Assembly (NCBI RefSeq): GCF_030378065.1
Contig: NZ_JAUCGJ010000003.1
Location: 1 to 64,000, forward strand
DNA: 64,000 nucleotides
Direction: 5' to 3'
From: Candidatus Venteria ishoeyi
Lineage (GTDB): Bacteria > Pseudomonadota > Gammaproteobacteria > Beggiatoales > Beggiatoaceae
Shown: positions 27,827 through 63,617 of the stretch, piece by piece
Layout of the letters: every line of letters starts with the position of its first letter
How positions within the stretch are numbered: the stretch's first letter is position 1
Program-made: the position numbers and the translations under genes
The notes under the pieces: generated by a model
The model's input: only the letters and a program-made list of their open reading frames with translations
The model's database searches: none
Told to the model about the DNA's origin: nothing

Positions 27827-27861
27827 AAAATTTCTTTGTTAATCTGAATCCAGTATTTGGT

Positions 27862-27904
27862 AGACACTATCAATAACTTAGTGTGAGGTAGCGGCACTTT
27901 TCAG
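27862..27904 (+). repeat. 41-bp dispersed repeat, copy R2
   Basis: The core ACTATCAATAACTT, then TGAGGTA, then CA-x-TTTTCAGC aligns without gaps over 41 positions to copy R3 at 36845-36889. It lies between hslR and the DUF6901-like gene. Confidence 0.6.
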
Positions 27905-27944
27905 CGTCTTTAGCACTGCAAGAAACCTTCATCGAACTCACTGT

Positions 27945-36777: not shown

Positions 36778-36844
36778 TTTGTTACAAAAATCTAAGCAAT
36801 CCGAGTTCGAGATGAGATTTTTTATCCAAAATACTTAAACCTGT

Positions 36845-36889
36845 AAATACTATCAATAACTTGGCATGAGGTAAAAACAGTTTTCAGCC
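36845..36889 (+). repeat. 41-bp dispersed repeat, copy R3
   Basis: TACTATCAATAACTT, TGAGGTA and TTTTCAGC match R2 (27862) gaplessly. It ends about 10 bp upstream of the first possible start codon of the following regulator and so forms its leader. Confidence 0.6.
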
Positions 36890-47889: not shown

Positions 47890-48053
47890 TTAGGAGTGAG
47901 GATGAAATAAGTGCAGGAACTGGGCGCAGGATTTTTATTTATTTTCAAGGCGTGAAAACAGGCGCATAGCAAGCTATGTAACTGTTTTCATAACGCAGAA
48001 AATGGAGAAAAAGACCAGCCAAGTTTCTGAAGTTATAAAATTCTCGCTCCTTA
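47890..48053. repeat. 164-bp full-length imperfect palindrome (ERIC-like), copy A
   Basis: Tips TTAGGAGTGAG and CTCGCTCCTTA begin two complementary arms of about 80 bases meeting at CATAGC-AA-GCTATG (centre 47971/47972). TGAAAACAG (47953-47961) pairs with CTGTTTTCA (47982-47990). It is nearly identical, over the same 164 bp, to the inverted copy at 60352-60515. It lies in the 325-bp gap 47859-48183 between the divergent cyclase and ABC_sub_bind genes, which shows nothing else beyond promoter-like AT-rich sequence. Confidence 0.88.
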
Positions 48054-57055: not shown

Positions 57056-57964
57056 CTACGTGGGTTGATGTAAACGCACTTGCGCAACCACTGCGCGGTG
57101 ATCGGATACCACATCCGGCAATACCCGGTAATTCACAAACTCCAGTTCTTTGGACAGCAAAATCCAGTCTATGCGTTTATCACTCATCCAGAATGTGCCT
57201 TCTTTATTTTGCTCTGGCTGCCAGGTATGCAGGGCAAGTTTTTCTGCAAAATTTTTCAAAATTTGTTGCTCATGCCAGCCAGTATTAAAATCACCCATAA
57301 TAATAACGGGATTTTGGCGCGCCTGTAATAACTGGCTTAAGGTTTCCAGTTGCTGACTGCGGGCGCGAGCACGTAAAAAATCCAGATGCAGTGACACCAC
57401 ATCAATTTTTTGCTGAGGATGTCCCGGAATATGCGTAGTGGCAATAACAAAGCCTTTCGGCGGTGTTGGCGGGGTGCTGGCAAAACGAATAGAACGGCCT
57501 TCCTGCAAGGGCAAGCGGGATAAAAGCGCGGTGCCATATTGCAGCCCCATGCCTTGCACATGCTTGCCTTGCACGCTGCTGTGCATATGACTTTTTTCTG
57601 CCAGATACTGCACATGATTAAATGCACCGCTCCAGAAGGATTCGGCATCGGCTTCCTGCAAAGCCACAATATCGGGCCGCACCCGCTGCAAGAGTTTTGC
57701 AATATTGTTTAAGTGTTGCTGAATCTTTTTTTCAGACTGAAAAAATTGATGAAAACCATTGCTGCGCCCGTGCGCAATATTTAAGGTGCAGACTTTTAAC
57801 ATGGCAGTGCTATTAGGTGGTGGTATCTGTCTGCTGTCAGCAAACATGGCATACTGGGTGACTTGCATCTTATCATGACCGGTCAGCCCGTAAGCCGTCC
57901 AGGTTGCCAAAGCCAGCAGGAAGAATAAACTGATTGTGATTGATTTCAATATTTTCGGCATCAT
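57056..57964 (-). CDS. endonuclease/exonuclease/phosphatase (EEP) family protein
   Basis: 302 residues with an N-terminal membrane/signal helix (about 9-25). The EEP fold motifs are in order: CTLNIAHGR, VALQEADAESFW with metal-binding Glu, VDVVSLHLD-type SLHLDFLR, IIMGDFNTGWH, RIDWILLS and DVVSDHRAVVAQV. All catalytic residues are kept. These proteins hydrolyse phosphodiester or phosphomonoester bonds; given the export signal and glycosyltransferase partner, a phospholipid or glycan substrate is possible. A 164-bp palindromic repeat ends only about 6 bp upstream of its first ATG. Confidence 0.85.
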   Translation of the reverse strand: MMPKILKSITISLFFLLALATWTAYGLTGHDKMQVTQYAMFADSRQIPPPNSTAMLKVCTLNIAHGRSNGFHQFFQSEKKIQQHLNNIAKLLQRVRPDIVALQEADAESFWSGAFNHVQYLAEKSHMHSSVQGKHVQGMGLQYGTALLSRLPLQEGRSIRFASTPPTPPKGFVIATTHIPGHPQQKIDVVSLHLDFLRARARSQQLETLSQLLQARQNPVIIMGDFNTGWHEQQILKNFAEKLALHTWQPEQNKEGTFWMSDKRIDWILLSKELEFVNYRVLPDVVSDHRAVVAQVRLHQPT

Positions 57965-57970
57965 TTATTG

Positions 57971-58135
57971 TAAGGTAACTCGCAAGAAATAACACCCCCG
58001 TAGCGTGCAGGATTTTTATTCGTTTTCAAGGCGTAAAAACCGGCGCATAGTGAGCTATGTAACGGTTTTTACAACGCGGAAAACGGGTAAAAAGACCAGC
58101 GAAATGGGGGGCGTTATGCGCTGCGAGTTACCTAA
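57971..58135. repeat. 165-bp full-length imperfect palindrome (ERIC-like), copy B
   Basis: TAAGGTAACTCGCA at one end pairs with TGCGAGTTACCTAA at the other. The centre has CATAG-TGAG-CTATG at 58046-58059, the same as copies A and C, and the middle 90 bp is clearly related. The outer arms differ in sequence from A and C, yet pair with each other (ATAACACCCCC with GGGGGGCGTTAT). It lies in the 210-bp gap between two divergent genes. Confidence 0.85.
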
Positions 58136-60351: not shown

Positions 60352-60515
60352 TAAGGAGTGAGAATTTTATAACTTCAGAAACTGAACTGGTCTTTTTCTC
60401 CATTTTCTGCGTTGTTAAAACAGTTACATAGCTTGCTATGCGCCTGTTTTCACGCCTTGAAAATGAATAAAAATCCTGCGCCCAGTTCCTGCACTTATTT
60501 CATCCTCACTCCTAA
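60352..60515. repeat. 164-bp full-length imperfect palindrome (ERIC-like), copy C
   Basis: TAAGGAGTGAGAAT and ATCCTCACTCCTAA form the tips; centre CATAGC-TT-GCTATG at 60427-60440. It is the inverted, nearly identical counterpart of copy A (same 164-bp length). It lies between gluQRS and aat; the remaining about 160 bp of the 328-bp gap hold nothing recognised. Confidence 0.88.
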
Positions 60516-62126: not shown

Positions 62127-62201
62127 GCGGGTGTCGTATAATGGTTATTACCTTAGCTTCCCAAGCTAAAGATGACGGTTCGATTCCGTTCACCCGCTCC
62201 A
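62127..62201 (+). tRNA. tRNA-Gly (anticodon CCC)
   Basis: 75 bases including CCA. Acceptor GCGGGTG/CACCCGC; anticodon stem TTAGC/GCTAA with loop TTCCCAA giving CCC; T-arm CGGTTCGATTCCG. A P4-type integrase lies 183 bp downstream, so the 3' half of this tRNA is likely the attachment site of an integrated element. Confidence 0.97.
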
Positions 62202-62311
62202 CAATCTCATTTCAGAACGTTTCATAATATCCCACAAGCAAAGCAATAAAAGGGATTCCCGCCTTTCTGTTGTTTCATTAGATACCATCTTGTATAGTGA
62301 CATACCACCGC

Positions 62312-62351
62312 TTTTGCTGGTATTTATGTTGGCATTTTCATACCAGCAAAA
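62312..62351. promoter_or_regulatory. inverted repeat upstream of the integrase
   Basis: TTTTGCTGGTAT (62312-62323) and ATACCAGCAAAA (62340-62351) are perfect 12-bp arms. ATACCA occurs twice more nearby (62282, 62302) and again at 62356. The pattern suggests binding sites for the integrase or AlpA-type regulator, controlling excision or int expression. Confidence 0.45.
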
Positions 62352-62384
62352 CTGCATACCATCAAATCCCCAAAAGGTGCAGTT

Positions 62385-63617
62385 ATGTCATTGACCGATA
62401 TACAAATCCGTAACGCCAAACCCAAAGATAAGCCATACAAATTATCAGACGGCAAAGGGCTTTATCTGCTGATTAATAAAGCTGGGAAATACTGGCGTTA
62501 TGGTTATCGCTTTTCAGGCAAACAAAAAACGCTGGCATTAGGTGTATATCCAGAAACTACCCTCCAACAAGCACGGCTAAAACTGGCAGATGCTCGCTTA
62601 TTGCTGGCTGATGGCGTAGATCCAAGCACATACAAACAGGCGCAAAAACAGGCCAATAAACTGGATGCTGAAAACAGCCTTGAGATGGTAGCGCGTGACT
62701 GGTTTGGACGAACCCAAAGCAAATGGACAAAGGGTTATGCAGACGCAACTATCAAGCGATTGGAAAAGGATATATTCCCTTGGCTGGGTAATAAACCAAT
62801 TACCGATATAAAACCACCTGATGTATTACGGGTGTTGCGGCGTATTGAATCCAGAGGCGCAAATGAAACAGCACATAGGATGTTGCAAATCTGTGGTATG
62901 TTTTTTCGCTATGCCGTGGCTACTGGGGTACTGGAAAGTGATCCTTGCCGTGATTTACGTGGTGCGCTTGCGCCTGTTAAACGCAAACACCATCCAAGCA
63001 TCACAGACCCCGCAAACATTGCCCCATTAATGCAAGTAATCCGGGATTATGAAGGTGAACTTGTCACCCGATGCGCCTTAAAACTGCTTCCCCTTGTCTT
63101 TGTCCGGCCTGGCGAACTTCGCCAGGCTGAATGGTCAGAAATTGACCTGAACGCGGCGCTGTGGTCGATACCGGGCAGTAAAATGAAAATGAAAGCCGAT
63201 CATCTTATCCCCCTGTCCAGCCAAGCTGTTAAGATTTTGCAAGAAATTCAGCCACTTACCCAGCAAACAAGCCGCTATGTATTCCCCTCTATCCGTTCTA
63301 ATAGCCGTCCAATGTCTGAAAATACCATCAATGCTGCTTTACGGCGTTTGGGATATACCAAAGAACAAATGACCGGTCACGGATTCAGGGCAATGGCTAG
63401 AACCAACCTTGATGAAGTGTTGAGATTCAGAATTGAAGTGATTGAAATGCAGCTTGCCCATGCGGTACGTGATGCCAATGGACGGGCATACAACAGAACC
63501 CAATACATTGATGATCGCCAGCGCATGATGCAAGCCTGGGCTGATTGGTTGGATGATCTGCAAGTGGGTGATGGTATCAATGGCAATAATATTGTACCAA
63601 TCAATAAGGCTGGCTAA
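62385..63617 (+). CDS. P4-type tyrosine recombinase/integrase
   Basis: 410 residues. The N-terminal DUF4102 arm-binding domain has LTDIQIRNAKPKDKPYKLSD and GLYLLINKAGKYWRYGYRF; a central SAM-like core-binding domain follows; the catalytic domain has R241 in VFVRPGELRQAEW, the HxxR box in GHGFRAMART and the nucleophilic Tyr in AYNRTQYIDDR. AAGGTG precedes the ATG. The location next to a tRNA-Gly gene and upstream of an AlpA-type gene fits the integration module of a genomic island whose remaining part lies outside the window. Confidence 0.95.
   Translation: MSLTDIQIRNAKPKDKPYKLSDGKGLYLLINKAGKYWRYGYRFSGKQKTLALGVYPETTLQQARLKLADARLLLADGVDPSTYKQAQKQANKLDAENSLEMVARDWFGRTQSKWTKGYADATIKRLEKDIFPWLGNKPITDIKPPDVLRVLRRIESRGANETAHRMLQICGMFFRYAVATGVLESDPCRDLRGALAPVKRKHHPSITDPANIAPLMQVIRDYEGELVTRCALKLLPLVFVRPGELRQAEWSEIDLNAALWSIPGSKMKMKADHLIPLSSQAVKILQEIQPLTQQTSRYVFPSIRSNSRPMSENTINAALRRLGYTKEQMTGHGFRAMARTNLDEVLRFRIEVIEMQLAHAVRDANGRAYNRTQYIDDRQRMMQAWADWLDDLQVGDGINGNNIVPINKAG

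Follow-up and report, generated by a model that had tools for sequence, protein, structure and literature searches.

A MITE-like palindromic repeat of Candidatus Venteria ishoeyi with an interior that is probably conserved as a folded single strand

What kind of element is the long palindrome at positions 47890-48053 of this Candidatus Venteria ishoeyi DNA, and is anything in it conserved besides its ends? An initial annotation, made from the letters of the window (the whole stretch of DNA analysed, 64,000 nucleotides), had described a 164-bp element present three times. For two copies that description holds. Copies A (47890-48053) and C (60352-60515, inverted) are each 164 bp long and mutually complementary at 96%, ungapped and over their full length. 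As annotated, copy A folds into a single long imperfect hairpin (−68.6 kcal/mol, z = −9.5, equalled by 0 of 200 shuffles), which is centred on CATAGC-AA-GCTATG and has the termini TTAGGAG/CTCCTTA. The outer TTA or TAA of A and C is a 3-bp target duplication and lies outside the element proper, so that each 164-bp unit is made up of a 158-bp element and 3 bp of duplication per side. The third copy departs from the description: copy B shares only the inner ~97 bp with A, at 86% identity (58007-58103 in the raw repeat list), and is itself a complete palindrome of 159 bp plus TAA duplications (57971-58135), with outer arms that are unrelated to those of A and complementary to each other (GGTAACTCGC...GCGAGTTACC). 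Copy B belongs to a second, sister subfamily with the same core and other outer arms; in the window, subfamily A is represented twice and subfamily B once. The features are as follows.

47890..47892, + strand: left target-site duplication TTA of copy A (TNA duplications, middle-base match in 98/104 own copies vs 46% expected)
47893..48050, + strand: copy A, type-A element, 158 bp, full-length imperfect palindrome (BLAST with at least 40 near-identical copies, fold, boundaries)
48051..48053, + strand: right target-site duplication TTA of copy A (TNA duplication statistics)
47924..47936, + strand: left shoulder of copy A, GCGCAGGATTTTT, a conserved internal loop (kept across alignments A1 and A3)
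47961..47982, + strand: apex of copy A, GGCG-CATAGC-AA-GCTATG-TAA-C (239 genome sites; covarying stem and fixed flanks in A3)
48008..48019, + strand: right shoulder of copy A, AAAAAGACCAGC (kept across A1 and A3)
57971..57973, + strand: left target-site duplication TAA of copy B (flank comparison)
57974..58132, + strand: copy B, type-B element, 159 bp, same core, arms GGTAACTCGC...GCGAGTTACC (alignment to A, outward reading, genome copies)
58133..58135, + strand: right target-site duplication TAA of copy B (flank comparison)
60352..60354, - strand: target-site duplication of copy C, TAA on the + strand (flank comparison)
60355..60512, - strand: copy C, type-A element, 158 bp, inverted (96% complementary to A; BLAST)
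60513..60515, - strand: target-site duplication of copy C, TAA on the + strand (flank comparison)

Copy B starts 6-10 bp upstream of the predicted start codon of a minus-strand gene at 57056-57964 (window positions 57964-57974), which puts the element end at the expected position of a ribosome-binding site. Near copy A, no promoter or terminator signal rose above shuffles.

From three copies in the window the annotation had concluded that the genome must contain many, and it had forecast that a genome search would return tens to hundreds of intergenic ones; both expectations proved right. In the host assembly (4.41 Mb, 115 contigs, 98.8% complete) the core GCGCATAGNNNGCTATG occurs at 239 sites when one mismatch is allowed, about 5.4 per 100 kb, and the reversed-pattern control gave 0. 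BLAST recovered at least 40 full-length type-A copies with 95-100% identity, and the genome holds at least 13 near-full type-B copies. Reading 1.26 of the 4.4 Mb as stretches, together with other fetched loci, delimited 106 distinct copies, mostly of 158 bp (type A), 157-159 bp (type B) or 170 bp (type A with a short extra insert to the right of the apex). Nearly all sampled copies are intergenic (1 of 93 lies inside an ORF), located in promoters and at 3' ends; they lie closest after the 3' ends of genes (median 36 bp), and the elements constitute ~0.9% of host DNA. Neither the direction of transcription relative to neighboring genes (26 vs 34) nor the replication strand as judged by GC skew (30 vs 32) showed any bias, and placement therefore gives no pointer to a particular RNA role. 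At loci L194 and L219, pairs of type-A elements form head-to-tail tandems that share one TTA per pair. In many copies an additional sequence, often one that forms a hairpin, is inserted immediately to the right of the apex: CCTAAGTCCAAACAGGC in the window's own genome (L193, L199, L200, L203, L221 and L227), and elsewhere (L092, L095, L106, L108, L121 and L149) a ~45-bp CTTGCCTACATCCATGTAGGC unit in Methylococcaceae and AGTTACGTAGTAACTTGA or TAATTGTTTTAACAATTTGA in Lachnospiraceae.

At either end the three outermost bases read TNA, and the middle base agrees in 98/104 of the genome's own copies (46% expected) and in 70/73 copies from other genomes (52% expected). Because TTA, TAA and TCA were all seen, these bases represent a genuine 3-bp target duplication and not a fixed end. 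The family shows what is expected of a MITE: terminal inverted repeats (the whole unit is an inverted repeat, with ends GGAGTGAG/CTCRCTCC or GGTAACTCGC/GCGAGTTACC), the TNA duplication, and many dispersed short copies (158-170 bp) without a transposase. The TNA duplications and the dispersed intergenic copies together indicate a MITE-like non-autonomous transposon, and this is very likely a real, abundant and recently mobile family of that type. Core-less mini-elements that retain both ends are also found (L240:13646-13715, L244:15888-15909 and L201:16233-16284), and since the flanking TNA matches in those inspected, the element ends alone are probably sufficient for mobility.

The 3-bp duplication and the arm-swapped subfamilies go beyond the initial annotation, as does the presence of the core in other phyla. 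A 20-base apex pattern matched 91 stretches of 27 assemblies (genome contigs), with ~0.5 expected by chance. The hosts are Lachnospiraceae and other Clostridia (including strain records RAYF01 and RAYY01), Methylococcaceae, Methylomonas, SAR324 and three Bacteroidaceae MAGs, and these other hosts contain up to 84 apex sites per genome at one mismatch. The matches in Clostridia, Methylococcaceae, Methylomonas and SAR324 are nearly all palindromes of ~156-200 bp that have TNA duplications and share a conserved shoulder, which lay outside the apex search pattern. The core found in Lachnospiraceae, Methylococcaceae, SAR324 and 15 other genera of the window's class consists of the apex GGCG-stem-YAAC and the shoulder GCGC[A/C]GGA opposite GACAAGC; the Bacteroidaceae matches have the apex alone. 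With an independent covariance model built on the inner 99 positions, strong matches came from 16 of 369 genomes of the window's class, belonging to 15 genera; within the window's own family, its own genome was the only sampled one to give any. Likewise, the apex pattern matched 58 relatives at chance level only, the window's own genome excepted. Plasmids, phages and viral contigs gave no match, and neither did E. coli (5,426 genomes searched with the Lachnospiraceae form). This patchy occurrence fits an element that moves horizontally.

The ends around this one core differ widely. TNA-flanked GG ends carry lineage-specific arms (GGAGTGAG, GGTAACTCGC, GGAACTGT, GGTAATGCGC, GGGATGTGG and GGGCCGCGG), and other end types occur as well, namely TATACTTCGCRCGG ends (G296 with nine copies, L101 and L103) and AGCAAGCCCCAG ends (G085), both of which are probably TA-flanked. 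The same core is thus found between TNA-GG..., TATACTTCGC... and AGCAAGCC... ends. On a SAR324 contig (L099:4947-4991), one element end is present as three tandem 22-bp copies (TTAGGAATGCTCCAAAAATAAC), and a Lachnospiraceae palindrome (L155:6872-7031) has the same TNA-GGAACTGT ends with another apex (CGTAGGCGTAGTGGGCTACGGCGAGG).

We used alignment A3 of 24 diverse cores to examine how the interior has diverged. Its 18 model-found rows are independent of the apex pattern; apex invariance in alignment A1 is partly ascertained by the search pattern, which A3 corrects only partly. The compensatory changes that the annotation had predicted are abundant, with two-sided compensatory change in 27/33 pairs (0/500 shuffles). 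Pairing was retained in 94.6% of pairing cells (73.5% when shuffled and at most 50% when slid), and the covariation score was 0.627 (0.221 shuffled and at most 0.148 slid). Covariation extends to the apical stem, in which CATAG/CTATG gives way to CATAC/GTATG, TATAG/CTATA or CATAT/ATATG, and the flanking GC(G) and (Y)AAC are unchanged in 16-18 of the 18 model-found rows; shoulder bases are retained at 62-100%. Single-site departures on the GCG...TAA strand are more often G-U than A-C (47 vs 22 distinct events, p = 0.0035), unlike what a duplex without a preferred strand would give. Covarying stems, fixed loops and mismatches and the G-U excess together point to a folded single strand under selection, and from these sequence comparisons we infer that selection preserves such a strand, whether as RNA or as ssDNA. 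The interior is likely conserved as a folded strand across phyla. Overall, we consider it quite probable that the element is a MITE-like non-autonomous transposon with a conserved interior module that acts as a folded single strand. An A>G excess among type-A cells was set aside, as it reflects shared ancestry and distinct events are without bias.

Alternatively, the palindrome might be kept as DNA, through hairpin-templated repair or through intrastrand conversion, and compensatory changes could then arise without any selection on a folded strand. The palindromes are indeed near-perfect, and internal hairpin deletions exist (L225 and L243). However, templated correction should erase internal mismatches, and GCG/YAA and GCGC[A/C]GGA/GACAAGC have been kept as loops in several phyla; nor would it give any reason for an excess of G-U over A-C on one strand. 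This explanation appears rather unlikely.

It might also be supposed that these are ordinary MITEs left by an IS5/IS1031-type insertion sequence, with a core that is neutral filler and looks conserved through recent spread between lineages. Like the IS1031 group and the IS1031/IS5-group MITEs (Tourist/PIF-like), the element has GG... ends and a 3-bp TNA duplication, and copies within the genome are 95-100% alike, but no transposase of that group with matching ends was found in the genome. DUF4096, which we take to be the IS1031-type domain, is absent in nine host genomes, including the window's own with its 239 copies. Searches with PF01609, PF13359 and DUF4096 combined with end scans found no autonomous element with the same ends: the DDE_Tnp_1 loci (8 in the host genome and 20 in eight other hosts) are all without them, DDE_Tnp_4 is absent from the window's genome, and in the 1.26 of 4.4 Mb scanned, no gene lies between paired orphan ends. 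Half-elements in L191 and L207 were considered as possible IS ends and rejected, as they border host genes. The mobilizing enzyme is either lost, unrecognized or of another family, and because MITEs can outlive their parent element, a related autonomous element is not an absolute requirement for a MITE. Neutral filler, on the other hand, would not covary; between genera the stems have diverged with compensation whereas the loop bases have not, and the core sits between unrelated end types. With its conserved, covarying interior the element also differs from the IS1031/IS5-group MITEs, and we regard this origin as improbable.

Hairpins with fixed mismatches, a form that the element shares with the REP/REPIN repeats that occur with RAYT, resemble substrates of Y1 (RAYT) enzymes, and the element might be a REPIN-like hairpin moved as ssDNA by such a transposase. 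Y1_Tnp was detected in 16/18 hosts compared with 5/14 controls. Nevertheless, Y1 chemistry does not produce 3-bp duplications, a copy lies near only 1/12 Y1 loci, and the hosts G070 (52 copies) and G280, both perhaps incomplete genomes, lack a Y1 match. The element is moreover longer than REP/REPIN, has a target duplication and has no consistent Y1 partner, making this route very unlikely.

The annotation had called the element ERIC-like, which is apt for its architecture but not for its identity. ERIC (RU-1; enterobacteria and Vibrio) is likewise a short, non-coding, intergenic, full-length palindrome with many copies and a short target duplication, but it is 127 bp long and duplicates TA (PMC2759123), whereas the element duplicates TNA, gave no nhmmer match to ERIC and had Smith-Waterman scores within those of shuffles. 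YPAL (RU-2, Yersinia), a palindromic, MITE-like intergenic repeat of 167-168 bp that is reported with TA duplications (PMC2759123), also showed no similarity above shuffles to our TNA-flanked element, and neither did RU-3 (all three comparison sequences were taken from PMC2759123). Membership in the ERIC/IS630 (TA-duplicating) class of enterobacterial palindromes would suit the size, intergenic location and hairpin of the element, and the related end type TATACTTCGC (G296, L101 and L103) looks TA-flanked. For the window's type, however, the class is contradicted by the tested features, including the lack of any match to the Lachnospiraceae form among the E. coli genomes, and we consider membership highly improbable.

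By description, Correia/nemis and BOX/RUP/SPRITE repeats are also MITE-like hairpins near genes, and we know of none reported to place a single core between unrelated ends in several phyla. RNase III can take transcripts of Correia elements as substrates (PMC10969869). No Rfam family was matched near or above its gathering score by the window elements or nine loci, and the core appears in no paper searched, in line with the annotation's failure to recognize a named family; subscription journals lay outside that search and an earlier description is possible. Lastly, GCGCATAG...CTATGTAAC resembles the two dif half-sites, but it is hardly credible that the element has a XerC/XerD (dif-like) recombination site as its apex, given a spacer 2 bp shorter and an apical stem that varies freely with compensation in other genera; the host genome has no dif-like site above control at up to 2 mismatches with which the apex could be compared directly.

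Returning to a MITE-like element with a conserved folded interior, the observed units are 158-bp, intergenic, TNA-flanked palindromes with ~30-bp terminal inverted repeats (GG...AAATAA), the recent copies of which are 95-100% alike. A DDE-type transposase supplied in trans would cut the ends and join them at staggered TNA sites, its gene being presumably absent from the host genome or unrecognized there. The interior module (the apex GGCG-stem-YAAC with the internal-loop shoulder) may work as folded RNA or ssDNA, in the form of the GCG...TAA strand, and be recognized by some factor. Our best guess is that the module is kept for a benefit of the folded strand to the element, which could lie either in the recruitment of a host or element factor during transposition or in the disarming of read-through transcripts, for instance through processing of the hairpin. 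More tentatively, the core could be an ancient transposon-borne selfish RNA/ssDNA hairpin module, packaged between unrelated ends in at least three or four phyla because a widely conserved factor, cellular or encoded by the element, recognizes its folded form (the GCG/YAA and GCGC[A/C]GGA/GACAAGC loops).

In the usual view a MITE keeps nothing but its ends; here it is the interior that recurs across phyla and with various ends and duplication types. Should the folded strand be recognized, the module becomes testable and the search target would be a factor common to Lachnospiraceae and gammaproteobacterial methanotrophs. The question also bears on the persistence of palindromic repeats such as ERIC.

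The same genome contains a second long palindrome family (L202, L203, L206, L211, L214, L216 and L240; e.g. L206 near 8005 and L216 near 16450), with ends GGAGGCTGTCCGAGAAC / GGAGGCTGTCCGAGAACA at CTAG sites and an apex GGCG-AATATTGGGTATATT-TAACG or GGCGCATAGTGGTTCTATGCAACG, so that GGCG...AAC again surrounds the apex. Judged by its sequence, this family has a similar architecture with different ends and is possibly a distant relative of the core; the covariance model scores it no better than reverse-strand hairpins. The window further contains another dispersed 46-bp repeat (GTARAYACTATCAATAACTT...TTTTCAGC) at 27860-27905 and 36843-36888 (78% alike), with similar strings elsewhere in the genome. 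At 62127-63617, a tRNA gene is followed by a P4-type tyrosine integrase (Arm-DNA-bind_3 + Phage_integrase), the usual start of a genomic island.
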